Assembly (NCBI RefSeq): GCF_004364645.1
Contig: NZ_SOAW01000001.1
Coordinates: forward strand, 1,922,001-1,986,000
Reading direction: 5' to 3'
Length of the DNA: 64,000 nucleotides
DNA from: Naumannella halotolerans
GTDB taxonomy: Bacteria > Actinomycetota > Actinomycetes > Propionibacteriales > Propionibacteriaceae
Shown here: piece after piece, positions 16,906 through 36,382 of the stretch
Layout: every line of letters starts with the position of its first letter
Numbering within the stretch: position 1 is the first letter of the stretch
The notes under the pieces: generated by a model
What the model saw: the letters and a program-made list of their open reading frames with translations, nothing else
The model's database searches: none
Told to the model about the DNA's origin: nothing
Translations under genes and position numbers: made by a program

Positions 16906-17757
16906 GTGTCTGCCGCGCACGACCGGCCGACCGCTGTCCGGGTCACCCATGTGTCCAAGACCTACTCCGACGGTGAACGGCCGGTCACGGCGCTGGCCGA
17001 CGTCGGCCTGGACATCGGACGCGGAGAGTTCGTCAGCATCATCGGCCCCAGTGGCTGCGGGAAGTCGACCCTGCTGCGCATGGCGGCGGGATTGGAACGA
17101 CCCGACCGAGGTGCCGTCGAGGTTTTCGGTCTCGGTCCTGCCGAGGCCGGGGAGGCCAAGCTGCTCGGCCTCGTACCGCAGCGCCCCGCCCTGCTGCCCT
17201 GGCTGGACGTCGGGTCCAACATCGCGCTGCCACTGCGACTGAATCCGGCGGCGGCCCGCCGTCGAGCGGAGTTGTCCACGGTGCCGAAGTCCGGTGACCT
17301 CGACGTCACCGAGCTGCTGCGCGCAGCCGGTCTGGCCGGCACCGAGAAGCTCCTCCCCCACGAACTGTCCGGCGGGATGCAGCAGCGGGTCGCAGTGGTC
17401 CGGGCCTTCGCACTGCAACCGGCGGTGCTGCTGATGGACGAACCGTTCTCGGCCCTGGACGAGTTCACCCGCGAAAGCCTGCAGGGCCAGCTGCTGAGCA
17501 TCTGGGCCGAGTTCTCCACCACGGTGATCTTCGTCACCCACTCGGTGACCGAAGCGGTACGGCTGTCGGATTCGGTGGTGGTGATGGCCCCGGGCAGGAT
17601 CATCGACCGGATCGACATCGATCTGGACCACCCTCGCAACGGTGAACAGCTGCAGTCCGCCCGGTTCCACCACTACGAGGATCTGCTGCGTTCGCGACTG
17701 CAATCGGCATGGCGCGAGAGCGCCCGGGGCACCGAGGCGCCGGAGGCACCACGATGA
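16906..17757 (+). CDS. ABC transporter ATP-binding protein, NitT/TauT family
   Basis: The ATPase of an importer, 283 residues. Walker A GPSGCGKSTLL (about residue 46), Q-loop VPQRPALLPW, signature LSGGMQQRVAVVRA, Walker B LLMDEPFSALDE and the H-loop THSVTEAV are all intact. LLPW after the Q-loop and the DEFTRESLQ region are typical of nitrate/sulfonate/thiamine-precursor importers. GTG 16906 follows AGGAGC. The next gene overlaps by four bases, giving an ATPase-permease-binding-protein operon. A TPP riboswitch upstream would have suggested thiamine precursors, but none is visible. Confidence 0.9.
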   Translation: MSAAHDRPTAVRVTHVSKTYSDGERPVTALADVGLDIGRGEFVSIIGPSGCGKSTLLRMAAGLERPDRGAVEVFGLGPAEAGEAKLLGLVPQRPALLPWLDVGSNIALPLRLNPAAARRRAELSTVPKSGDLDVTELLRAAGLAGTEKLLPHELSGGMQQRVAVVRAFALQPAVLLMDEPFSALDEFTRESLQGQLLSIWAEFSTTVIFVTHSVTEAVRLSDSVVVMAPGRIIDRIDIDLDHPRNGEQLQSARFHHYEDLLRSRLQSAWRESARGTEAPEAPR

Positions 17758-18539
17758 GCCACCGGCTGCGCCGGATCTGGCATCCGGCGATGTGGGGTCC
17801 GCTGGCTCTGTTGCTGATCGTTCTCGGCCTGGCCTGGCAATGGGGATCGCGGACCATGCCGTACCTGCTGCCACCGTTGCAGCGGGTCGCGGAGACTCTG
17901 GTCGAGGACTGGGACTTCTATCTCACCAATGCCGCGATCACCTTGTACGAGGCGTTGCTCGGGTTGGCGATCGGTACGGTCGTGGCGATGGTCGCGGCGA
18001 TCGCGATCAGTGAGTCCCGGATCCTCCGGCGCGCGATCCTGCCGCTGGCGGTGATCCTGAACGTGACCCCGCTGGTCGCGATCGCACCCGCACTGGTGGT
18101 CGCCTTCGGATTCGGTCCCGCCCCGAAGCTGATCGTCACCGCCTTGATCGTCTTCTTCCCGGTGTTGATCAACGTCGCCGCCGGTCTGCGTTCGGTGCCC
18201 GTGGAGGTGATGCAGTTCTACACCGTGATCCGTGCCTCTCGCACCGAGGTCCTCGTTCACCTCCGCCTGCCGACCGCGCTGCCGAACCTGCTGACGGCAC
18301 TGAAGATCGTCTTCCCACTGTCGATCATCGGCGCCGTGGTCGCGGAGATGTCTGCCCCCGGTGCCGCCGACGGGCTCGGCACCGTGATCAGCGTGGCCAG
18401 TTCGTCGAATCGTCTCGCGGTTGTCTGGGCGGCCATCGGAGTGTTGGCGGTGATGGGATCATTGCTGCTGTTGTTCGTCACGGTGATCGAGCGGTGGGTG
18501 CTGCGGTGGCACCGGGCCACGGTGGCGGGAGATGTCTGA
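17754..18539 (+). CDS. ABC transporter permease, NitT/TauT family
   Basis: A 261-residue membrane subunit with about six transmembrane helices and the coupling-helix region FYTVIRASRTEVLVHLRLPTALP reduced to its core RASRTEVLVHLRLPTAL (about residues 158-175), which contacts the ATPase. ATG 17754 overlaps the ATPase stop (ATGA); a longer frame starting inside the ATPase is not needed. It would form the dimeric channel for the substrate delivered by the lipoprotein encoded next. Confidence 0.9.
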   Translation: MSHRLRRIWHPAMWGPLALLLIVLGLAWQWGSRTMPYLLPPLQRVAETLVEDWDFYLTNAAITLYEALLGLAIGTVVAMVAAIAISESRILRRAILPLAVILNVTPLVAIAPALVVAFGFGPAPKLIVTALIVFFPVLINVAAGLRSVPVEVMQFYTVIRASRTEVLVHLRLPTALPNLLTALKIVFPLSIIGAVVAEMSAPGAADGLGTVISVASSSNRLAVVWAAIGVLAVMGSLLLLFVTVIERWVLRWHRATVAGDV

Positions 18540-18558
18540 TCGAACGGAGTACCAGAAC

Positions 18559-19641
18559 GTGCGCAGGTCCCTTCCGAAGGCACTCGTGGGGGCTCTGGCC
18601 GCTGCCTTGATCCTGACCGGGTGCACCGGTGGGACGCAGGAGACCGACACCGGGCGCGGCAGCGCCATCTCCGCCAAACGGTGTGCGCAGAACGAGGCGG
18701 CCGGGGAGATCACCTACCTGACGGGGTACCAGTACCAGTCCTCGGCGTCGATCCTGGAAGTGATCTCGGCCGAGGCGCTGGGTTATTACGACGCCCTGTG
18801 CCTGGACGTGACCATCGAGCCGGGCAACGGTGACACCGGTACGAACGCGCAGGTGCTGGCGGCGAACACGGTCCAGTTCAGCGCCGTCAGCCAGCAGGAC
18901 CTGTTGCTGTTCCACGACAACGGTGTGCAGATCCGCGGCATCTCCTCCTACTCCGATGCCGGCCTGGAGATCTTGATGACGATGCCGCAGATCACCGAGT
19001 TGCCGCAGCTGGACGGTACGACCTTGGGGCACAAGGGTTCGATGCCGACCACCGTGTTGGCGATGTTGGACAGTGCCGGGGTCGATGTGGACTCCCTGAC
19101 CCAGGTCACGGTCGGATTCGACCCGAGTGTGCTGCCGCGCGGACAGGTGCAGTCGCTGACCGGGTTCTTGTCCAACGAGCCGAACCAGCTGGCTGCCGCG
19201 GGTACCCCGCCGACGGTCTGGCGTCCCTACGACTACGGTGTTCCCTCCTCCCTGGGCGCCCTGGCGGTGAATCCCGCTTTCGCCGATGCCAACCCGAGCG
19301 CCACCGAGGATTTCCTGCGGGCCACCTTCCGGGCCTTCGACCACTGCGCGGTGAATGCCGAGGAATGTGTCGGCTATGCCGCCGACGTGGCCGAGGCCGG
19401 TTACGACACCGAGCACAACCTGTCGGTCTGGCAGTCCGAGGTGGAGGTCATCCGGGAGACCGCCGAGGGTCCGCTCGGGGAGATCGATCCGAGCAACATC
19501 GCCGCCATCAACCAGATGTTGATCGACTACGGCCTGGTGAACACACCGCTCAGTGATGCCGAGGCCGAGCAACTGTTCGACCCGTCGGTGGTGCCGACGT
19601 TGTACGACGACTCCGGGGCCTTGATCTGGCCTGCTCCCTGA
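18559..19641 (+). CDS. ABC transporter substrate-binding lipoprotein (NMT1/THI5-like)
   Basis: A 360-residue extracytoplasmic binding protein. The start is GTG 18559, with GGAG eight bases before it, giving the signal MRRSLPKALVGALAAALILTGC, whose LTGC lipobox predicts lipid anchoring at Cys22. The upstream ATG 18532 in the same frame would add nine polar residues. EITYLTGYQYQSSAS begins the mature domain, which has the NMT1/THI5 and taurine/nitrate binding fold (ANTVQFSAVSQQDLL). The ligand is unknown; thiamine precursor, sulfonate and nitrate are family possibilities. A convergent hairpin follows at 19647. Confidence 0.85.
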   Translation: MRRSLPKALVGALAAALILTGCTGGTQETDTGRGSAISAKRCAQNEAAGEITYLTGYQYQSSASILEVISAEALGYYDALCLDVTIEPGNGDTGTNAQVLAANTVQFSAVSQQDLLLFHDNGVQIRGISSYSDAGLEILMTMPQITELPQLDGTTLGHKGSMPTTVLAMLDSAGVDVDSLTQVTVGFDPSVLPRGQVQSLTGFLSNEPNQLAAAGTPPTVWRPYDYGVPSSLGALAVNPAFADANPSATEDFLRATFRAFDHCAVNAEECVGYAADVAEAGYDTEHNLSVWQSEVEVIRETAEGPLGEIDPSNIAAINQMLIDYGLVNTPLSDAEAEQLFDPSVVPTLYDDSGALIWPAP

Positions 19642-26519: not shown

Positions 26520-27446
26520 TCAGTCCTGGACGGCCTTGGCGACGGTAATGCAGCGGGTGATCCAGGACCGATCGGCAGCATCCAGGCCTCGCCCGGTACG
26601 TTCGGCATCGGCCAGGGTCCAACCGGCGTTGATGATCATGCGGACGATCACCCAGTCCCGTGCCCGCTCCTCGTCCAGTCCGGCGGCATCGATCAGCGTG
26701 TGGAAGCGCTGGCGCAAGCCCTCCCGCAGCAGACTTCCCGTACCCAGCTCCTGCATCCGGTTGATCAACATCGGCGCAGGCTCGAACTGCGGGTCACCGG
26801 CGACCGGCTTCGGGTCGATCGCCAGCCAGGGCTCCCGGTCCGCGGCGAGGACGTTCCCGTAGTGCAGGTCGGCGTGCAGCAGACGGGCCGGTGGCGGGTC
26901 GGCCAGCAGGGAACGCCCCGTCGAGACCGCCTGTTCGACGTAGCGGTGAGGAATCGGCGCCGACCGCGGCAACCGGGCGAGGCGGTCGAGATCGGGGCTC
27001 ACCCAGTCGGCGAGGTCGCCGAACCTGGGTGAAGCCGGTACGTGCAACTGCCGGTACAGCCCGGCGACCAGCTCACAGGCCTCGACATCCCAGCGCTCGG
27101 CCAGGTCGGTGCGTTCCAACCGCTCCAGCAGCAACGCCCTTCGCCTCGGGTCGGCGCGTAGCAACCGGACCGCCCCGGCGCCGTCCCAGGTCCGCAGCGC
27201 CAACGGCTCATCGACGCTCTCGGTGTCCCCGTCGTAGGCCAGCTTCAGCACCGCCGGCCGGCCGTCGTCGAGGACCGGCAGCACCAAGGAGGCATGGCCG
27301 TGCCAGGCATGCTCCCCGTCGCGACGCAGCCCCCACTCGTCCAGCACCGCGGCCGCCCGGGCGGGCAGGGCGTCCAGCCAGGTCTGCCAGGACTCGCCGA
27401 GCACCGATCGGGCGAGCAACCCGGGAGGGAGGACGATCGGGCTCAT
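26520..27446 (-). CDS. Aminoglycoside/hydroxyurea-type phosphotransferase (APH(6)-like kinase)
   Basis: A 308-residue kinase-fold protein of the streptomycin-6-kinase-like family. Catalytic motif LLHADLHYGN (HxDxxxxN) near residue 200 and metal-binding AIDPKPVAGDP follow an N-lobe with VLKLAYDG for ATP. Members phosphorylate streptomycin or small hydroxylated metabolites; a chromosomal copy with no mobile context need not confer resistance. ATG 27446 is preferred over an upstream GTG at 27455. It follows the adenosine deaminase gene by 36 bases on the same strand and may be cotranscribed. Confidence 0.82.
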   Translation of the reverse strand: MSPIVLPPGLLARSVLGESWQTWLDALPARAAAVLDEWGLRRDGEHAWHGHASLVLPVLDDGRPAVLKLAYDGDTESVDEPLALRTWDGAGAVRLLRADPRRRALLLERLERTDLAERWDVEACELVAGLYRQLHVPASPRFGDLADWVSPDLDRLARLPRSAPIPHRYVEQAVSTGRSLLADPPPARLLHADLHYGNVLAADREPWLAIDPKPVAGDPQFEPAPMLINRMQELGTGSLLREGLRQRFHTLIDAAGLDEERARDWVIVRMIINAGWTLADAERTGRGLDAADRSWITRCITVAKAVQD

Positions 27447-27482
27447 CGGCACCACCGGGCGACCTCACGGCCGGAACAGCTC

Positions 27483-28562
27483 TCAGCCGGCGGTACGCAG
27501 CCGCGCATAACCCGGTTTGATCACCTCGTTGATCAGGGCGAGTCGCTGATCATGGGGCAGGAAGGCCGACTTGGCCGAGTTCAGGGTGATCCATTCGATG
27601 GTGTCGAGGTCGTAGCCGAACGCCTCGCTGAGCAGGGAGAACTCGCGGCTCAGCGAGGTCCGGCTCATCAACCGGTTGTCGCAACTGACCGTCACCCGCA
27701 TCCCGGCCCGCACCAGCACGTCGATCGGGTGCTCGGCGATGCTGGGGGCGATCCCGGTCTGCAGATTCGACGACGGGCACACCTCCAGCGGGATCCGAAG
27801 GTCCCGGATGTAGGCGGCCATCCGACCGAGTTGCAGCCCGTCGGCCGTCTCGGAGATGTCGTCGACCAGCCGTACCCCGTGGCCGATCCGCTGCGCCCCG
27901 CACAGATGGACCGCCTCCCAGATGGAGCGCACCCCGTGGGCCTCCCCGGCATGCACGGTGAAGCGGGCATTGGCCGCCCGCAGGCGGTCGAAGGAACGCT
28001 GGTGGCGACTCGGCGGGAAGCCGTCCTCGGGGCCGGCGATGTCGAAACCGGCGACCGAGTCGTCGCGATAACGGACCGCCAGGTCGGCGATGTCCAGCAC
28101 ATCCACGTGCTGGCGCATCCCGGTGATGATCTGCCGGGCGATGATGTCGTGGCCCGCCTCGGCGGCTGTCTGCATCCCCTCGGCGAGCCCGTCGCGTACC
28201 GCCTCGATCGCCTCGCCCAGCCCCAGGCCGGGCCCGACATGTTGCGCCGGTGCCCAGCGGGCCTCGGCGTAGACCACCCCGTCGGCTGCCTGGTCCTCGA
28301 CGAACTCCTTGGCCACGCGGTGCAGCGCCGAGGCGGTCCGAGTCACCGCGATCGTGTGGTCGAAGGTCTCCAGGTAACGCACCAGGGTCCCGGAGTCGGC
28401 CGCTTCGAAGAACCAGTCGCCCAGGGACTCGGCATCGGCGGCCGGCAGTTCGTGGCCGACCTCGGCGGCCAGGTCGATCACCGACTGTGGCCGCAACCCA
28501 CCGTCGAGATGATCATGCAGAGCGACCTTCGGTGCGGCACGCAGGGTGTGGATGTCGACCAT
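27483..28562 (-). CDS. add: Adenosine deaminase
   Basis: A 359-residue zinc hydrolase converting (deoxy)adenosine to (deoxy)inosine. Metal and catalytic residues are seen in KVALHDHLDGG (HxH, about residue 16), TVHAGEAHG (zinc His plus general acid Glu, about 210), RIGHGVRL and SCDNRLMS near 300, where the classical enzyme has a TDDP-type motif. This CDN/TDN variant is usual in actinobacterial members. ATG 28562 has TAGCCT six bases upstream, matching the leaderless pattern. With PNP, cytidine deaminase and the BMP importer in this window it forms a nucleoside salvage set. Confidence 0.93.
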   Translation of the reverse strand: MVDIHTLRAAPKVALHDHLDGGLRPQSVIDLAAEVGHELPAADAESLGDWFFEAADSGTLVRYLETFDHTIAVTRTASALHRVAKEFVEDQAADGVVYAEARWAPAQHVGPGLGLGEAIEAVRDGLAEGMQTAAEAGHDIIARQIITGMRQHVDVLDIADLAVRYRDDSVAGFDIAGPEDGFPPSRHQRSFDRLRAANARFTVHAGEAHGVRSIWEAVHLCGAQRIGHGVRLVDDISETADGLQLGRMAAYIRDLRIPLEVCPSSNLQTGIAPSIAEHPIDVLVRAGMRVTVSCDNRLMSRTSLSREFSLLSEAFGYDLDTIEWITLNSAKSAFLPHDQRLALINEVIKPGYARLRTAG

Positions 28563-28662
28563 GGAGGCAGGCTACTCGTCAGCTCCCGGGCTCGGAGGCT
28601 GCACACCCCACCCCTGTGCATCGATGCACATCCGGCGTGCATTGCTGGCCACCGAGAGTGCG

Positions 28663-28690
28663 TTGATCCCCAGACCCGATCAGCCATAGT
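28663..28690 (+). promoter_or_regulatory. Candidate promoter TTGATC-16-CATAGT for the MHS transporter
   Basis: A -35 TTGATC (28663-28668) and a -10 CATAGT (28685-28690) are spaced by 16 bases, 40 bases upstream of an ATG with AAGGAG. It is the best two-box promoter in the divergent add/MHS region. Confidence 0.45.
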
Positions 28691-28730
28691 GTGCTCGCAG
28701 TTCCCTTCGAGACTGACAAGGAGCTCAACG

Positions 28731-30098
28731 ATGAGCACAATCCCTGCCGCTCCGTCGAAGCAGACCCAGCTTCGCCGTGTGGTCGCCGCCTCCATGGCCG
28801 GCACGATCGTCGAGTGGTACGAGTTCTTCCTCTACGCCTCGGCCGCCACCCTGGTCTTCAGCCACATCTTCTTCCCCGAGTCCGACAATCCGCTGGTCAA
28901 CGTCATGTACGCGTTGGGCACCTATGCGGTCGGCTTCATCGCCCGCCCGTTGGGCGGGATCGTCTTCGGCCACTTCGGCGACAAATACGGCCGGAAGAAG
29001 CTGCTGCAGTTGAGCATCATCCTGGTCGGCGCGGCCACCTTCCTGATGGGGTGCATCCCCAGCTACGACACGATCGGCCCGCTGGCCATCGGGATCCTGA
29101 TCTTCCTCCGTCTGCTGCAGGGATTCGCCGTCGGCGGCGAATGGGGCGGCGCGGTGCTGCTCGTGGCCGAGCACTCACCCAAGGAGCAACGCGGCTTCTG
29201 GGCCAGCTGGCCGCAGTCGGCGGTGCCGCTGGGCAACCTGCTCGCCACGGCGGTGCTGTTCATCCTCAGCGCCACCCTCACCAGCGAACAGTTCCTGGCC
29301 TGGGGCTGGCGGATCGCCTTCTGGCTGTCGGTGGTGATCGTGATCGTCGGCTACTACATCCGGACCAAGGTCAACGACGCACCGATCTTCGAGGCTGCCA
29401 AGGCCGAGATCCAGGAAGGTGGTGCCGGTTACGGCGCGATCGAGGTCTTCAAGCGCTTTCCCCGCGGGGTCTTCACCGCCATGGGCCTGCGCCTGCTGGA
29501 GAACGTCTTCTACTACCTGCTGGTGACCTTCACCATCACCTACCTGACCTTCTCGGTCGATCTGGGGCAGAGCGACGTCCTCGGGTTGCTGTTGGTCGGC
29601 CACATCTTCCACGCGATCGCCGTACCGCTGATCGGCAAACTCACCGACCGGATCGGACGCAAACCGGTCTACGCCGTCGGTACGGTGCTGGCCGCGACCT
29701 GGGGCTTCTGGGCCTACCGGCTCTACGACACCGGCCAGGATCTCTACATCGGCATCGCCCTGGTCGCCGGCCTGTTGTTCCACGGGCTGATGTATGCCGG
29801 ACAGCCTGCGATCATGGCCGAGATGTTCCCCACCCGGATGCGCTACTCCGGAGTCTCCATCGGTTACCAGCTGACCGCGATCGTCGCCGGCTCGCTGGCG
29901 CCGATCATCGCCACCGCCCTGCTGAATCGGTACGAGAGCTCCACCCCGATCGCGATCTATCTGCTGATCTGTGGCGTGATCACCATGATCGCGGTGATCG
30001 CCTACCGGGAGACCAAGGGCCTGGACCTGCACGAGCTGGACAAGGCCGATGACGACTACCGGGCCGACCTGCGCGCCAAGCAGCAGGACGCGCTGTGA
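28731..30098 (+). CDS. MFS transporter of the MHS (metabolite:H+ symporter) family
   Basis: A 455-residue, twelve-helix secondary transporter. Family signatures are GTIVEWYEFFLYA at the first helix, ARPLGGIVFGHFGDKYGRKK between helices 2 and 3, LRLLQGFAVGGEWGGA, and GKLTDRIGRKP in the second half. MHS proteins import organic acids or zwitterions (shikimate, proline, alpha-ketoglutarate). ATG 28731 follows AAGGAG; the frame is open far upstream but without a start site. The next gene overlaps by four bases and resembles 3-hydroxybutyrate dehydrogenase, so a hydroxy-acid substrate such as 3-hydroxybutyrate is a reasonable guess. Confidence 0.92.
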   Translation: MSTIPAAPSKQTQLRRVVAASMAGTIVEWYEFFLYASAATLVFSHIFFPESDNPLVNVMYALGTYAVGFIARPLGGIVFGHFGDKYGRKKLLQLSIILVGAATFLMGCIPSYDTIGPLAIGILIFLRLLQGFAVGGEWGGAVLLVAEHSPKEQRGFWASWPQSAVPLGNLLATAVLFILSATLTSEQFLAWGWRIAFWLSVVIVIVGYYIRTKVNDAPIFEAAKAEIQEGGAGYGAIEVFKRFPRGVFTAMGLRLLENVFYYLLVTFTITYLTFSVDLGQSDVLGLLLVGHIFHAIAVPLIGKLTDRIGRKPVYAVGTVLAATWGFWAYRLYDTGQDLYIGIALVAGLLFHGLMYAGQPAIMAEMFPTRMRYSGVSIGYQLTAIVAGSLAPIIATALLNRYESSTPIAIYLLICGVITMIAVIAYRETKGLDLHELDKADDDYRADLRAKQQDAL

Positions 30099-30829
30099 GC
30101 CGACGGGTACTCGTCACCGGCGGTGGTCAGGGTCTGGGAGCTGCCATCTCCCGGGCCCTGGCCGTCGGCGGGAATCGGGTGATCGTCGCCGACCGCGATG
30201 CCGAACATGCCGAGGCCGTGGCCGGTGAGATCGGCGGTGAGGCCTGGGTGGTCGACCTGTCCGACACCGAGGCACTGGACGATCTCTCGCTCGAGGTCGA
30301 CATCCTGGTCAACAACGCCGGGATCCAGCGGATCCACCCGATCGAGGAGTTCCCGCCCGAGGAGTGGCGGCTGATCATGCGGGTGATGCTGGAGACCCCC
30401 TACCTGCTGACCCGGGCGGCGCTGCCGTACATGAAGCATCAGGGATGGGGACGGGTGATCAACATCTCCTCGGTGCACGGGCTGCGGGCGTCTGCCTTCA
30501 AGAGCGCCTATGTCGCGGCCAAACACGGTCTGCAGGGGCTGACCAAGACCACGGCGCTGGAGGGCGGACCGTTCGGGATCACCGCCAACACGGTGAATCC
30601 CGGCTATGTTGGGACCGCCCTGGTGACCTCGCAGATCGCCGACCAGGCGCGCAGCCGTGGGATCACCGAGGAGCAGGTGACCGATCAGGTGTTCCTCGCC
30701 AAGTCTGCGATCAAGCGCCTGGTCGAACCCGAGGAGGTCGCTGCGCTGGTCCGCTTCCTGGCCTCCGACGAGGCAGCGATGATCACCGGTGCGGCGCACA
30801 GCATGGACGCCGGCTGGTCGGCGGGCTGA
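30095..30829 (+). CDS. SDR oxidoreductase, 3-hydroxybutyrate-dehydrogenase-like
   Basis: A 244-residue classical SDR. Motifs: VTGGGQGLGAAIS, NNAGIQ, catalytic Ser in INISSVHG, and YVAAKHGLQGLTK. The segment NAGIQRIHPIEEFPPEEW and the HGL after the catalytic Lys recall bacterial D-3-hydroxybutyrate dehydrogenases, which oxidise the compound to acetoacetate with NAD+. GTG 30095 overlaps the transporter stop, so both are made from one message. Together they look like an import-and-oxidise pair. A perfect hairpin follows 14 bases later. Confidence 0.82.
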   Translation: MSRRVLVTGGGQGLGAAISRALAVGGNRVIVADRDAEHAEAVAGEIGGEAWVVDLSDTEALDDLSLEVDILVNNAGIQRIHPIEEFPPEEWRLIMRVMLETPYLLTRAALPYMKHQGWGRVINISSVHGLRASAFKSAYVAAKHGLQGLTKTTALEGGPFGITANTVNPGYVGTALVTSQIADQARSRGITEEQVTDQVFLAKSAIKRLVEPEEVAALVRFLASDEAAMITGAAHSMDAGWSAG

Positions 30830-30933: not shown

Positions 30934-31791
30934 TCAGCCCTTCAACGATCCGGCCGTCATCCCGGCCACGAACCACCGCTGCAGGAACACATAGGCCACG
31001 ACCATCGGGATGCTGGCGATGATCACCCCGGCGAACAGCATCGGATAGTTGGTGCTGTACTCCCCCTTGAAGTCCAGCAGTGCCTTCGGCAGCGTCGCCT
31101 TCTCCGGATCGGTGATGAACAACAGCGGGTACAACAGATCGTTCCAGTGCATCACGAACAGGAAGATCGCCACCGCCGCCACCGACGGTGCCGAGATGGG
31201 CAGCGCGATCTGCCAGAAGATGTGCCAATTCGAGGCGCCGTCGACCTCCGCGGCCTCGAACAGCTCCTTCGGCAGGGTCTGGAAGAAGCCGGTGAGGATG
31301 AAGATCGCCACCGAACAGGTGACGGCGATGTTGATCAGGATCAACCCCAGCAACGAGTTCGTCAGCCCGAGCTGCCGGAAGATCACGTACTGCGGGATCA
31401 TCGCCACCTGTGCGGGAACTGCCAGACCGAGCGCGAACAGCACATAGATCACGGTGCCTGCCCGACCTCCGAGCCGGACGATCGCGAACGAGGCCAGGGA
31501 AGTCAGCAACAAGGTCGCACTGACCGAGACCACAGTGACGATCGCCGAGTTGGCCAGACTGCGACCCAGTCGGTCACCGCCGAGCAGCTCGGTGAAGTTC
31601 GACATGGTCGGATCGGTGGGCAGGCCGAACGGATCGGCATACATCTGCGTGGTCGTCTTCAAGGCGGTGAAGACCACCACCGCCAGCGGTACGACGATCA
31701 GCACCGCATAGATCGCCAGCACGATCCAGCGGGGCAACTCGGTGAGATCCCGGCGGCGGCGACGCCCGGGTACGGTTTCGCCGACGCTCAT
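30934..31791 (-). CDS. Carbohydrate-type ABC transporter permease (MalG-like)
   Basis: A 285-residue permease of the CUT1 group with about six transmembrane helices. The EAA coupling motif is present as EAAEVDGASNWHIFWQIALP near residue 190. It ends with VAGMTAGSLKG, a typical MalG-type terminus. ATG 31791 overlaps the stop of the partner permease (ATGA). It is the last gene of a four-gene operon starting with a flavin monooxygenase. No ATPase gene accompanies it, so a shared MsiK-like ATPase elsewhere would be needed, as in many actinobacterial CUT1 systems. Confidence 0.92.
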   Translation of the reverse strand: MSVGETVPGRRRRRDLTELPRWIVLAIYAVLIVVPLAVVVFTALKTTTQMYADPFGLPTDPTMSNFTELLGGDRLGRSLANSAIVTVVSVSATLLLTSLASFAIVRLGGRAGTVIYVLFALGLAVPAQVAMIPQYVIFRQLGLTNSLLGLILINIAVTCSVAIFILTGFFQTLPKELFEAAEVDGASNWHIFWQIALPISAPSVAAVAIFLFVMHWNDLLYPLLFITDPEKATLPKALLDFKGEYSTNYPMLFAGVIIASIPMVVAYVFLQRWFVAGMTAGSLKG

Positions 31792-32720
31792 CGGTCACCG
31801 CCTCCCGAGGCCAGGGCGACGGCCCTGCGCTGCAGCACCGTGATCACCGCGATCAACACGACGAAGATCACCGACTGCGCGGCGGCGTAACCCATCTCGA
31901 AGTTTCGGAACGCCGAGGTGTAGATCAGCGTGGACAGGATCTCGGTGGCGTAGTTCGGCCCGCCGCCGGTGGAGGCGATGATCAGGTCGAAGGCCTTGAA
32001 CGACTGGATCGTGGTGTAGGCGACGACGATCATGGTGGCCGGCCGAACCAGCGGGAAGGTGACCTGGCTGAACTGCTGCCACCGGCCGGCACCGTCGATC
32101 GCCGCGGCGTCGTACAACTCCTCCGGGATCTGTTGCAGCCCGGCGATGAACACCACCATCATCTGCCCGGTGTGGAACCAGATCTGGGCGATCGCCAGGT
32201 AGTAGATCGCCAGCTGCTGATCACCCAGCCACGGCTGCTGCAGACTCTGCAGCCCGACACCGGCCAGCAACCGGTTGGCCAGGCCGAAGGTCGGGTCGTA
32301 GATGAAGGTCCAGATGAACGCGACCGAGACCGAGGACAGGATCGTGGGGAAGAAGAACAGGGCCCGCAGCGCCACCGAGGTACGGCTGTTCCGCACCAAC
32401 ATCAGCGCCAACAGCAAGGACAGCACGGTCTGGCCGATGACCACGGTGAGCATGAACTTGAACGAATTGCCCACCGCCTTGGCGAAGACGCTGTCATTGG
32501 TCAGCAGGTTCGTGTAGTTGTCCAACCCGACATTGGTGTATCCCGCCGAGATCCCGTCCCAGTCGGTCAGCGAGTAGTGCACCGCCTGCACCGTCGGCCA
32601 GAGCACGAACCACAGGTAGATCACCGCGGCCGGGGCGAGGAAGACCAGCAGCAGCGGGTCGACCCGCCGGCGGTGCCGACGTCGGATCGCGCCGGCCGGA
32701 ACCCGGGCCGGCGCGGTCAC
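31788..32720 (-). CDS. Carbohydrate-type ABC transporter permease (MalF-like)
   Basis: A 310-residue permease with a basic N-terminus (RRRHRRR) and about six transmembrane helices. The coupling segment reads DAAAIDGAGRWQQFSQVTFP near residue 210. GTG 32720 starts two bases after the binding-protein stop, and its own stop overlaps the next permease. It pairs with the MalG-like protein to form the channel of a sugar or sugar-acid importer. The sequence gives no direct evidence of substrate. Confidence 0.92.
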   Translation of the reverse strand: MTAPARVPAGAIRRRHRRRVDPLLLVFLAPAAVIYLWFVLWPTVQAVHYSLTDWDGISAGYTNVGLDNYTNLLTNDSVFAKAVGNSFKFMLTVVIGQTVLSLLLALMLVRNSRTSVALRALFFFPTILSSVSVAFIWTFIYDPTFGLANRLLAGVGLQSLQQPWLGDQQLAIYYLAIAQIWFHTGQMMVVFIAGLQQIPEELYDAAAIDGAGRWQQFSQVTFPLVRPATMIVVAYTTIQSFKAFDLIIASTGGGPNYATEILSTLIYTSAFRNFEMGYAAAQSVIFVVLIAVITVLQRRAVALASGGGDR

Positions 32721-32722
32721 GC

Positions 32723-34009
32723 TCAGCGGTTCTCCTCGACCAGCTTCTGTGCCTGTTCGGCAGCCTGTTCCGGGCTGGCGCCGGTGGCGACGGCGACCAG
32801 GGAGTTCTCGATCGCCGACCGGATGTCCAGGTTCAGGAACTGGAAGCGTGGTGCCAACAGGTTGTTCCGGGTGGCCCAGGGTGCCAGTGCCTGCAGATCG
32901 GCGTTCTCGTACTCCACGCCGCTGACCGTGACGTGCTGGGAGGTGCCGTTGGCATAGACCGCGGCATTCTCCGGCTGGGACAGGAACTCCACCCAGGCCA
33001 GGGCGCCGGCAGCGTTGCCTGCTGCGGAGTTCACTCCGAGGATGAAGGTGGAGTTGAAGATGCCCTCGTACTTCGGCTGTTCGTCGGCGCTGTTGGTCAT
33101 CAAGGGGGCGAACTCCAGGCCGAACTCTCCCCCGGCCTCGCGTACCTGTCCGATCTGGTAACTGCCGGTCGGCAGGATCGCCGCCTCCCCCTGGCTGAAC
33201 TGGGCGAGCACCCCATCGACCCCGGCACCGGCGAAGTTATCCTGGAAGTACCCCGACAACTCCTTGAACTGCGTCAGCGCCGCGATCCACCAGTCGTCGG
33301 TTGCGGCGTAGCGACCGTCCTCGATCCCGGCGAACATGTCGTCGCTCGGCCCATGGTTCATCACCAGCGAGTTGATGATCTGGAACGCGTTGGCGGGGTC
33401 GTTGCCCGGCCAGGCGATCGGCACCACGCCGATACCGCGCAGCTTGTCCAGCGCATCCAACCAGGCGTCCCAGTCGGCCGGCGCCTGACTGAGGCCGGCT
33501 CGTTCGGCCAGGTCGGTGTTCAGCAGGGGCATGTTGAAGATCAACTGGTACGGAAAGCCCAGCTGGCTGCCGCCGGAGGCACCCGGAGTGATCAGGTTCG
33601 CCTCGTAGTTGCCACCGAAGGCGGCATCACTGAGATCGGCGAACAGCCCCAACTCGGCGAACTGGTTGAACTGCGCACCGGCCAGCGCGGTCAGGGAATC
33701 ACCGATCGCACCGTCGCGGGCCTTCTGCGCGGCCGTCGACTGGTACTGCTCGGACGGATCGATGGTCTGGGTCAGCTCGACCCCGGCGTGCGCCGCCACG
33801 AAGGAGGCGGCCAGCTCGTCCAGGATCGCCTTGTCCTCGTTGCGCCAGTGGTAGAAGTTCACCTCACCGGTGATTTCACCCCCGGACTCGACCGGGTCGG
33901 CTGCGCCACCGGTGGTGCTGCCGGGACCGCCGCAGCCGAGGGTGGCGGCGATCCCGAGACCGGCCAAGGAGCCCAGCATCCCGCGACGGGTGATGGTTTT
34001 CGCAGTCAT
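32723..34009 (-). CDS. Carbohydrate-type ABC transporter substrate-binding lipoprotein
   Basis: A 428-residue extracytoplasmic solute-binding protein (CUT1 type). ATG 34009 gives a Tat-like lipoprotein signal, TRRGMLGSLAGLGIAATLGC, with a TLGC lipobox. The mature domain begins EVNFYHWRNEDKAILDEL and contains the usual sugar-binding-protein features (AILPTGSYQIGQVREAG, FILGVNSAAGNAAGA). The frame is open upstream into the monooxygenase but the signal fixes the start. It lies 13 bases after the SsuD-like gene, so the operon order is monooxygenase, binding protein, two permeases. Confidence 0.9.
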   Translation of the reverse strand: MTAKTITRRGMLGSLAGLGIAATLGCGGPGSTTGGAADPVESGGEITGEVNFYHWRNEDKAILDELAASFVAAHAGVELTQTIDPSEQYQSTAAQKARDGAIGDSLTALAGAQFNQFAELGLFADLSDAAFGGNYEANLITPGASGGSQLGFPYQLIFNMPLLNTDLAERAGLSQAPADWDAWLDALDKLRGIGVVPIAWPGNDPANAFQIINSLVMNHGPSDDMFAGIEDGRYAATDDWWIAALTQFKELSGYFQDNFAGAGVDGVLAQFSQGEAAILPTGSYQIGQVREAGGEFGLEFAPLMTNSADEQPKYEGIFNSTFILGVNSAAGNAAGALAWVEFLSQPENAAVYANGTSQHVTVSGVEYENADLQALAPWATRNNLLAPRFQFLNLDIRSAIENSLVAVATGASPEQAAEQAQKLVEENR

Positions 34010-34022
34010 CGTCGACCTTCCC

Positions 34023-35174
34023 TCAGAACCCGGCAACCAGCCGGTTCGTACGTACCATAGCCGCCCGACGGGCGGCGAACCGAGGCAGCACCTCGGCGCC
34101 GACTCGAGCAGCCTCCTCGCGGTGTGGATATCCGGAGAGGATGAACTCGTCGATGCCGAGGTCGGCGTACTCGACCAATCGGTCGACCACCTGGTCGTGA
34201 CTGCCGACGATGGCGGTGCCCACCCCCTCACGGACCAACCCGATACCGGTCCACAGATTCGGCGCGATGGTCAGGTCGGCCACATCGGCGGGTACGTCGG
34301 TGCTGCGCAGGCCGCGCATCCGGGCCTGCCCGACCGAATCCATCGCCTGCAGCCGCTGCTGCACCTTGGCGACCACCTCGGGGGCGAAACCGGCCTGCAT
34401 CTGCGCCGCCACCTGCCAGGCCTCCTCGGCGGTGTCCCGACTGATCACATGCACCCGCAGACCGAAACCGATCGGCCGCTCGCCGGCCAGCTCCCGTACC
34501 CGCGCGATCCGGGGAGCCAGTTCGGCGGGCGGTTCGGCCCACAAGAGATAGCTGTCGGCCGCCTTCGCGGCGACTTCCAGCGCGGCATCGGAGGCGCCAC
34601 CGAAGAAGATCGGCACCGGTGCTCCGGCCGGCGCCACGAGCTGGGCGCCGACCAGCCGCAGATGCCGTCCCTGCAGATCGACCCGCTCCCCCTGCAACAG
34701 CGGGGTCAGCGCCTGCAACACCTCGTCGGTGATCTCGTACCGTTCGTCGTGGGCGACATGGCTGCCGTAGGCGGCCTGCTCGGCCGGGTCCCCGCCGGTG
34801 ACGACATTCAGGATGATCCGGTCCCCGTGCAGTTTCCGGAAGGTGTCGGCCTGCTGGGCGAGCAGGGTCGCCGAGGACAGACTCGGCCGAAGGGCGACGA
34901 TGAAACCGAGCCGTTCGGTCCGGGCGGCGATCGCCGAGCAGACCACCCACGGGTCCGGGCAGCCGATGCCGACAGGGGTCAGCGCGGAGTGGAAACCACC
35001 ACGCTCGGCCGCCTGTGCCACCTCGGTCAGGTAGCTCAGGTCGGCCTCCCGGGCGCCGGCCCGCGGTCCGGACCGGAATGCCGGAACGACTCCGGGGGTC
35101 GAGGCGTCGCCGCGAGTCGGCAGGAACCAGTGGAATCGGGTCGTTCCGAGGCGGGTCGGTACATGATCAACCAT
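34023..35174 (-). CDS. SsuD-like FMNH2-dependent monooxygenase (LLM class)
   Basis: A 383-residue luciferase-like monooxygenase close to alkanesulfonate monooxygenase SsuD. Aligned stretches include RFHWFLPTRGD, ALRPSLSSATLLAQQADT, ILNVVTGGDPAEQ, PIFFGGASDAALEVAA, DSVGQARMRGL, PNLWTGIGLVREGVGTAIVG and ILSGYPHREEA. SsuD uses FMNH2 and O2 to release sulfite from sulfonates, leaving an aldehyde. No flavin reductase gene is adjacent. ATG 35174 has TAGACT seven bases upstream and no Shine-Dalgarno. Its position as first gene of a sugar-type importer operon suggests a sulfonated sugar such as sulfoquinovose, but this is inference. Confidence 0.88.
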   Translation of the reverse strand: MVDHVPTRLGTTRFHWFLPTRGDASTPGVVPAFRSGPRAGAREADLSYLTEVAQAAERGGFHSALTPVGIGCPDPWVVCSAIAARTERLGFIVALRPSLSSATLLAQQADTFRKLHGDRIILNVVTGGDPAEQAAYGSHVAHDERYEITDEVLQALTPLLQGERVDLQGRHLRLVGAQLVAPAGAPVPIFFGGASDAALEVAAKAADSYLLWAEPPAELAPRIARVRELAGERPIGFGLRVHVISRDTAEEAWQVAAQMQAGFAPEVVAKVQQRLQAMDSVGQARMRGLRSTDVPADVADLTIAPNLWTGIGLVREGVGTAIVGSHDQVVDRLVEYADLGIDEFILSGYPHREEAARVGAEVLPRFAARRAAMVRTNRLVAGF

Positions 35175-35335: not shown

Positions 35336-36382
35336 ATGGCCGACGAGTGCACTGACCGACAGCCGCCGGCCGAGCGCAACTGGGAGTTGCTGGACGAACC
35401 GACCAGCGGCTCCCGGACGGCCGTTCGCGAGGGCTCGTGGAAACCGCAGCCCGTCCCCCGGATCCGGCCGAGGTTCACCGCGGCCGACCGGCGAGTGGGT
35501 CTGGTCCTGGCCGGCCTGCTCGCGTTCGTCGCGGTCTGCGGTCTCACCCTGCCCGGTCTGATGGGCACCACCCACCCCGATTACCGGGCGGCCTGTGCGA
35601 GCCTGCCGATCGAACCGGTACGTGCCCTGCTCGGCCCCGATGCACGGGCGGAGGGATTCAGCGCCTCGACCTTTCACTGGCAGTGCGGGTTCGCAAGCAC
35701 CTCCAATGCCGGGTTCTCGTCGCTGACGCTGACCGCGAGGTACGACCGGGACGATTCACACCTGGAGGGCGCCGAGCCGGTCGAGGTCGCGGGCACGGAT
35801 CGGGCCGGCCTGGTCATCGACGACAGCTGGGCCGCTTTGTGGACACTGACCGATGCGATCGCCTACGACATCGATCTGCAGGGGCCCGTGGTCTCCCAGC
35901 CGCTGTCCGCACAGGACCTGCTGGCCGTCGGCAACGCCTGGGTGCCGCGGCTCACCGAGCTCGGCATCAGCCAGCGGGACGTGCGTGATGCCGCCGGCGA
36001 TCCCTGCCGGGACGTGATCGCCCGGCCGGTCGAGTCGGCGTTCGATCGGCCGGTCGTCGTCAGCGGGATCTGGCAGGAGGTCGGAACGAGCAGCTGCACG
36101 GTCTACGACGCCCTGACGGTCGAACCATTGACCGAGATCACCTGGGACCGTGACCCCGCGCGGGAGGTGTACGACGCCGCATTGCGTCCCCTCCCCACGG
36201 ATGCACCCGGGCTTCGCGGACCGTACGAGGGGTCGTCGATCCCTCGGGGCAGACGTGCGATCGCCCACCGCGACGGTGTCACGGTGGGCGTCACCTTCCC
36301 GGACCGGGAGTTCCGCGATGGCCGGCTGCCGGAGACGTTGATCAACTCCGCCGCCCGCCGGATCCCGCCCGATCTGGACTGA
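35336..36382 (+). CDS. Membrane-anchored extracytoplasmic protein of unknown function
   Basis: A 348-residue protein that I do not recognise. After a polar N-terminus of about 50 residues comes one transmembrane helix (about 51-73, RVGLVLAGLLAFVAVCGLTL). The rest should be outside the cell. The outer part contains four or more Cys (HWQCGFAS, DPCRDVIA, SSCTVYDA) that could form disulfides, and two similar-looking halves, suggesting a duplicated domain. ATG 35336 is the chosen start; an in-frame start further upstream would overlap the divergent promoter of the monooxygenase. Confidence 0.65.
   Translation: MADECTDRQPPAERNWELLDEPTSGSRTAVREGSWKPQPVPRIRPRFTAADRRVGLVLAGLLAFVAVCGLTLPGLMGTTHPDYRAACASLPIEPVRALLGPDARAEGFSASTFHWQCGFASTSNAGFSSLTLTARYDRDDSHLEGAEPVEVAGTDRAGLVIDDSWAALWTLTDAIAYDIDLQGPVVSQPLSAQDLLAVGNAWVPRLTELGISQRDVRDAAGDPCRDVIARPVESAFDRPVVVSGIWQEVGTSSCTVYDALTVEPLTEITWDRDPAREVYDAALRPLPTDAPGLRGPYEGSSIPRGRRAIAHRDGVTVGVTFPDREFRDGRLPETLINSAARRIPPDLD

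Follow-up and report, generated by a model that had tools for sequence, protein, structure and literature searches.

What does an SsuD-like flavin monooxygenase do at the head of an operon whose remaining genes encode a sugar-type importer? The question is raised by a locus in a 64,000-nucleotide stretch of the Naumannella halotolerans genome (NZ_SOAW01000001.1, positions 1,922,001 to 1,986,000; hereafter the window), where positions 30934-35174 of the minus strand encode an SsuD-family FMNH2-dependent monooxygenase, a CUT1-type solute-binding lipoprotein, and two CUT1 permeases. With a probability of roughly two in three, we interpret this operon as a minimal oxidative sulfosugar-desulfonation cassette that imports sulfoquinovose, the sugar of the plant sulfolipid, or one of its glycosides, and cleaves the C-S bond with an SsuD-derived enzyme, mainly for sulfur. 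In the proposed mechanism, uptake of sulfoquinovose, or of a small sulfoquinovoside, would run through the binding protein and two permeases and be powered by a UgpC/MalK (MsiK-like) ATPase that is shared and encoded at another site. In the cytoplasm, the monooxygenase would use O2 and reduced flavin supplied by an unlinked reductase to cleave the C-S bond, releasing sulfite and a 6-aldehydo sugar, and an assimilatory reductase would then convert the sulfite to sulfide. Sulfur is probably the main benefit, given that no sulfoquinovosidase (SQase) or dedicated aldehyde reductase accompanies these genes.

All four open reading frames (ORFs) of the operon are open, and their recomputed spacings of 13, 2, and -4 bases, together with the family assignments, agree with the single four-gene transcription unit proposed in a first-pass annotation of the window. 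Of a CUT1 importer, the operon encodes the binding protein (SBP_bac_1) and both permeases (BPD_transp_1); the UgpA-like permease is 81% identical to its Brachybacterium counterpart over 274 residues, and the GlcU/UgpE-like permease 74% over 271 residues. The same annotation had described an importer lacking its ATPase, with no glycosidase or reductase next to it, and this also proved correct: scanning both flanking genes, we found no ATPase, reductase, or glycosidase adjoining the operon, one flanking gene encoding a short-chain dehydrogenase/reductase (SDR) and the other a product that matches no Pfam family. No SsuABC-type partner (NMT1-type binding protein, SsuC permease, or SsuB ATPase) is adjacent to the monooxygenase.

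The relatives of the importer point to a sulfonated sugar as its ligand. Searches with the binding protein only, run on whole genomes in three overlapping sets of 396, 293, and 394, recovered relatives at 44-54% identity in 17 genomes other than its own, at 38% in two more, and at 30-35% in 13 small genomes of one family (f100). We fetched the surroundings of the 17, of the two 38% loci (L068 and L069), and of two of the 13 f100 loci (21 loci), and searched these stretches at E 1e-10 using Yih proteins of E. coli K-12, among other queries. A homologue of the sulfofructose-phosphate aldolase YihT, 45-54% identical to that of E. coli, lies within 5 kb of the importer in 10 of the 17 genomes (L066, L067, L070, L077, L078, L100, L102, L103, L104, and L105). 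The isomerase in these loci is SftI-like in eight and an E. coli-type YihS (60-62%) in the other two, and a YihV-like kinase is present in eight of the ten. Judged by its matches, the L078 aldolase is firmly assigned to YihT (265-274 bits against YihT-type structures, 58.5 bits for the next match). For the L067 kinase, the top PDB match is the sulfofructose kinase YihV (96.7 bits versus 67.7 for the next), and the only NCBIfam match of the L067 and L078 isomerases at E 1e-20 is the sulfoquinovose isomerase model, at 269.4 and 281.8 bits, under its cut-off of 700. Both f100 loci (L106 and L107) encode SftI-like and YihV-like proteins, with YihT in L107 alone, and in one of the 17 genomes (L073) a TauD-type dioxygenase takes the place of YihT, 42 bases upstream of the binding-protein ATG. 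Since the family adjoins gene sets leading from sulfoquinovose to sulfolactaldehyde, its ligand should be a sugar and not a C3 product. The binding protein does not group by sequence with importers of ordinary disaccharides; as described above, its nearest relatives stand beside YihT and SftI-like or YihS genes.

Across 24 aligned binding proteins, the invariant residues include H54 W55 R56, E58 D59, and P153 Y154 Q155, and because this set is common to all 24, the SsuD-linked proteins and those linked to the sulfo-Embden-Meyerhof-Parnas (sulfo-EMP) pathway probably share a ligand class. A single clade of five SsuD-linked binding proteins was not rejected (p 0.633). The structural model of the binding protein (mean predicted local distance difference test score, pLDDT, 89) has mostly ordinary oligosaccharide-binding proteins as fold neighbours among the top 50 of 1563 PDB matches, including those for raffinose, xylobiose, and chitin oligosaccharides, and its strongest PDB sequence match is 4zs9, a raffinose/panose-binding protein. 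These resemblances would be expected of a neutral-sugar importer that is co-transcribed by chance with an unrelated flavoenzyme. However, the fold matches are just 14-20% identical, and at that level the fold predicted by the model does not discriminate between ligands; furthermore, the gene order recurs in five genomes and two SsuD lineages, and this, with the sulfoglycolytic neighbourhoods, disfavours coincidence, so that we regard a neutral-sugar importer as very improbable. No title among the 17 sequence matches in the PDB, or among the 50 best Foldseek matches, was recognised as SmoF, and a plasmid search with the binding protein gave no match. Three rhizobial SQase clusters, apparently of the sulfo-Entner-Doudoroff (sulfo-ED) type, encode binding proteins only 22-25% identical to that of the window. 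Two Rhizobiaceae plasmid SQase regions considered as a source of sulfo-SMO sequences resemble sulfo-ED instead, and no SmoF came from them.

Other features of these importer loci were observed. Each of the two f100 genomes is 1.3-1.4 Mb in size, belongs to the class of the window, and carries an importer 33-34% identical, which suggests streamlined sulfoquinovose users. The L073 enzyme is TauD/AtsK-like, is encoded directly before the importer, and may be a counterpart of the sulfoquinovose dioxygenase route. GH31 genes lie beside the importer in L066, L067, L078, L100, L103, and L104; the L078 protein resembles YicI (332 bits) more closely than YihQ-type structures (132-144 bits), and the six do not align with what we take to be positions R301, W304, and Y508 of YihQ, L077 being likewise unaligned there. 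These six enzymes may represent an unrecognised type of sulfoquinovosidase or act on something else. In four loci from one genus (L071, L072, L074, and L076), a conserved 169-residue protein, DinB-like by eye, is encoded on the same strand and precedes a stand-alone importer.

The pairing of monooxygenase and importer is itself recurrent. In a scan of one genome per species, the gene order of the window (SsuD, binding protein, two permeases) recurs in 4 of 36 loci encoding relatives of the monooxygenase, namely those of Brachybacterium sp. Z12 (L017), Paractinoplanes tereljensis (L019), Actinoplanes lutulentus (L020), and A. philippinensis (L028), with monooxygenase-to-binding-protein gaps of 9, 4, and -4 bases in L019, L020, and L028, respectively; locus L016 stops inside the monooxygenase and is therefore uninformative on pairing. 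With this recurrence the order exceeds chance. E. coli SsuA, SsuB, and SsuC queries found all three partners near SsuD in 5 of 42 loci (two of which belong to a single metagenome-assembled genome), and SsuA with SsuB in three more, all short loci. Given these few SsuABC loci and the four cassettes, the CUT1-SsuD pairing is a minority arrangement, yet a recurrent one. The Brachybacterium monooxygenase is split over two frames, which is either a broken gene or a sequencing error; its close relative L016 reads the same stretch in one frame.

The monooxygenase is nearest to SsuD/MsuD, although below the curated SsuD cut-offs. It scores 372.5 bits against NF001939 (cut-off 510) and 362.1 bits against TIGR03565 (cut-off 518.2), and so falls outside the TIGR03565 SsuD equivalog. 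Its best PDB matches, at 299-324 bits, are SsuD/MsuD-type proteins all titled alkanesulfonate monooxygenase, and 7olf and 7oh2, which we take to be SmoC structures, score 137-147 bits. Its identity to E. coli SsuD is 45%, compared to 31-32% for two Novosphingobium genes of the luciferase-like monooxygenase (LLM) class; the regions of these two also encode a YihQ-type protein and an aldo-keto reductase, and we take the pair as SquD by position. By profiles, PDB matches, and tree, the enzyme thus falls among SsuD sequences and not among non-sulfonate LLM enzymes, and it is SsuD-derived and not the known sulfoquinovose monooxygenase SquD. The first-pass annotation had proposed a comparison with the substrate residues of SsuD; run by sequence alignment, this found equivalents of C54, N105, W196, R226, H228, R297, and Y331, presumably the flavin and sulfonate site of SsuD, all retained. 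Against 32 other SsuDs (with six Chloroflexota rows and L032 left out), the lineage of the window differs at three near-invariant positions: all three of its members have Pro for A57 and Leu for T195, and position 134 is also changed. H11 of SsuD is Arg in this lineage, at a position that varies widely among SsuDs. The substitutions at 57 and 195 fit an altered specificity but do not show one. Position 195 is hydrophobic in the window lineage (Leu) and in SquD (Met) compared to Thr in the 32 others, a likeness that we did not use because SquD differs at most positions.

Two SsuD trees were reconstructed, both without L036 and L044, and the second frame of L017 was also left out. The first groups the window enzyme with L016 and L017 in one lineage (100/100), apart from the SsuDs of the Actinoplanes-type cassettes. 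In the second tree, from which L007, L010, and L012 were dropped and to which two SquD rows were added, this lineage is placed beside E. coli SsuD and L021 at 90/80, unlike in the first tree; its exact place among the sampled SsuDs changed between the two trees and is unsettled. The Actinoplanes-type SsuDs, at 52-55% identity to the E. coli enzyme, stand beside SsuABC-linked SsuDs in the first tree. Together with the nearness of the window enzyme to SsuD/MsuD, this placement is what ordinary scavenging of sulfur from alkanesulfonates would predict, with a normal SsuD and a CUT1 importer recruited for alkanesulfonates or for a C3 product of sulfoquinovose (dihydroxypropanesulfonate or sulfolactate). 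Yet the importer family leads us to expect a sugar ligand, and the window lineage is a diverged branch, at 44-46% identity to E. coli SsuD compared to 47-56% for other actinobacterial or unnamed rows, and we therefore consider such scavenging unlikely. The suggestion in the first-pass annotation that the pairing fits import and oxidative desulfonation of a sulfonated sugar gains support from the YihT, SftI-like, and YihS neighbourhoods in combination with the SsuD placement. Its further link to the sulfoquinovose monooxygenase pathway is one of functional analogy and not of SquD orthology, the rhizobial binding proteins being distant as well.

Candidate partners were sought elsewhere in the genome, as that annotation had also proposed. 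Two UgpC/MalK-type ATPases are encoded on contig C3, at 451.0 and 432.1 bits (NF008653, cut-off 432), one in a CUT1 operon of its own and the other without a called permease within the 12 kb read; an MsiK-like ATPase is thus available and may serve this importer. Six genes carry a flavin-reductase domain, and a single NIR_SIR gene is present, for which sulfite and nitrite reductase were not distinguished. No aldo-keto reductase of the SmoB/SquF type is encoded in the two flanking genes, the rest of the genome not having been searched for aldo-keto reductases. These results bear on whether the same import and C-S cleavage might instead serve carbon acquisition, with an unlinked aldo-keto reductase turning the 6-aldehydo sugar into glucose for use as carbon, an explanation that overlaps with our own. 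The known sulfo-ASMO pathway does so with SquF (PMC12890257). Against this, no aldo-keto reductase or SQase is seen in the two flanking genes or, by eye, among the neighbours listed for the four other cassettes, and GH31 is missing from the genome, where aldo-keto reductases elsewhere were not searched for; we judge use for carbon to be quite unlikely.

Several observations weigh against a sulfoquinovose-desulfonating cassette. Ordinary SsuD enzymes act on alkanesulfonates, and activity of the window enzyme on sulfoquinovose is a prediction. SquD orthology was rejected on the 31-32% identity and a separate long branch, and the approximately unbiased (AU) test spoke against one common origin for the CUT1-linked SsuDs, the six rows held together being rejected at p 0.033. 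No GH31 sulfoquinovosidase is encoded, with zero PF01055 matches in the genome (6 of 14 control genomes were positive; GH188 was not searched for). None of the queried sulfonate genes occurs in the fetched stretch of 6 of the 17 importer genomes (L071, L072, L074, L075, L076, and L101), nor within that of the two 38% loci. In the 17 genomes recovered with the binding protein, SsuD is never next to the importer, the four extra cassettes having come from the monooxygenase search, and the same holds for all 21 fetched loci. In the only additional genome of the genus that was examined (G004), SsuD is present but the importer is missing at E 1e-30, and the stand-alone importer genome G782 lacks any SsuD match at E 1e-40.

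The distribution of SsuD itself gives context to these counts. The pairing is patchily distributed: an SsuD match at E 1e-60 occurs in just 10 of 197 genomes of the family of the window, its own genome counted. Among the 17 importer genomes, an SsuD-like match at E 1e-40 is found in seven, namely five of group f2/g268 and the YihT-bearing G040 (43%) and G652 (39%), and is missing at that threshold from the other eight YihT genomes, the TauD genome, and G782. All five f2/g268 genomes that carry a stand-alone importer thus also have an SsuD, in four of the five on the same contig at a distance of 41-56 kb. We set this co-occurrence aside as evidence and give it little weight because SsuD is too common in the order (98 of 293 genomes at E 1e-60).

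Compared with known systems, the operon combines features of several. It shares with sulfo-ASMO/sulfo-SMO (Agrobacterium Smo, Novosphingobium Squ) an LLM-class FMNH2-dependent monooxygenase and the proposed oxidative C-S cleavage, but its enzyme is distant from SquD as assigned by position, and SQase, aldo-keto reductase, ATPase, and flavin reductase are not adjacent. The Agrobacterium pathway has been studied together with an ABC transporter for sulfoquinovose glycerol (PMC9594981). With SsuD/MsuD plus SsuABC it shares the enzyme family and the putative sulfonate-site residues, and differs in its CUT1 sugar-type importer and in positions 57, 134, and 195. As to actinobacterial sulfo-EMP (Arthrobacter AK01/AK04), the importer family of the operon is found in YihT clusters of genomes of its class and order, and ABC importers are reported in such clusters (PMC8873060), a likeness by description and not by importer sequence. 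The operon differs in its proposed C-S rather than C-C cleavage, and YihT has no match in the window genome at E 0.001, a search with no built-in positive control whose query finds the 45-54% homologues in relatives. With sulfo-ASDO (the SqoD dioxygenase of Marinobacterium) it would share oxidative desulfonation of sulfoquinovose, L073 coupling a TauD-type enzyme to the same importer family, and differs in using a flavin enzyme.

Sulfo-ASMO is described as mainly alpha- and betaproteobacterial, with SquD, SquF, and often SsuE (PMC12890257, PMC9594981). A 2026 survey scores genomes as positive when SmoB and SmoC are both encoded and reports sulfo-SMO clusters as frequent in Actinomycetota (PMC13372026), which weighs against novelty; given the enzyme found, the operon would probably fall outside that definition. 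Among the titles listed in our literature search, which left most subscription journals outside, none describes a sulfoquinovose operon of SsuD and a sugar importer. The cassette is most likely a reduced form of a pathway examined until now chiefly in proteobacteria. If so, it would provide a compact route to the sulfur of sulfoquinovose, described as among the most abundant organosulfur compounds (PMC12890257), and one that surveys keyed to SmoB plus SmoC (as in PMC13372026) or to sulfoquinovosidase could overlook. The binding-protein family would then be a candidate marker of sulfosugar users, and an importer with swapped downstream chemistry would be directly testable. More tentatively, and with somewhat less than even confidence, we propose that SsuD gave Actinobacteria a second monooxygenase route for sulfoquinovose, one that arose without SquD/SmoC ancestry and probably in two SsuD lineages, with one importer serving three interchangeable fates (C-C cleavage, flavin oxygenation, and iron oxygenation) and the SsuD version acting as a dedicated sulfur-scavenging module.

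Table 1 Coordinates of the operon, its neighbours, and other features (positions in the window unless a locus is named).
Feature	Position	Strand	Product	Remarks
SsuD-family FMNH2-dependent monooxygenase	34023-35174	-	383 aa	Operon gene 1; Bac_luciferase/SsuD profile matches
CUT1-type solute-binding lipoprotein	32723-34009	-	428 aa	SBP_bac_1; family found beside sulfoquinovose genes
CUT1 permease, UgpA-like	31788-32720	-	310 aa, GTG start	BPD_transp_1
CUT1 permease, GlcU/UgpE-like	30934-31791	-	285 aa	BPD_transp_1; 4-base overlap with UgpA-like permease gene
3-hydroxybutyrate-dehydrogenase-like SDR	30095-30829	+		Downstream of operon, convergent
Protein without Pfam match	35339-36382	+		Upstream of operon, divergent
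Metabolite/H+ symporter and 3-hydroxybutyrate dehydrogenase-like gene	27294-30829	+		Convergent to operon
ABC importer outside the operon	16906-19641	+		ATPase, permease, NMT1/THI5-like binding protein
TauD/AtsK-like dioxygenase with importer	L073:7553-9805	-		Directly before importer
Brachybacterium sp. Z12 monooxygenase	L017:8001-9117			Split over two frames

Two further features of the window lie outside the operon. The separate ABC importer is about 11 kb away, and the nearest models for its ATPase and permease are SaoA and SaoP, both under cut-off. The symporter and dehydrogenase-like pair looks unrelated to the operon, and the Pfam match of the symporter starts only at residue 497, which places its true start well inside the listed ORF.

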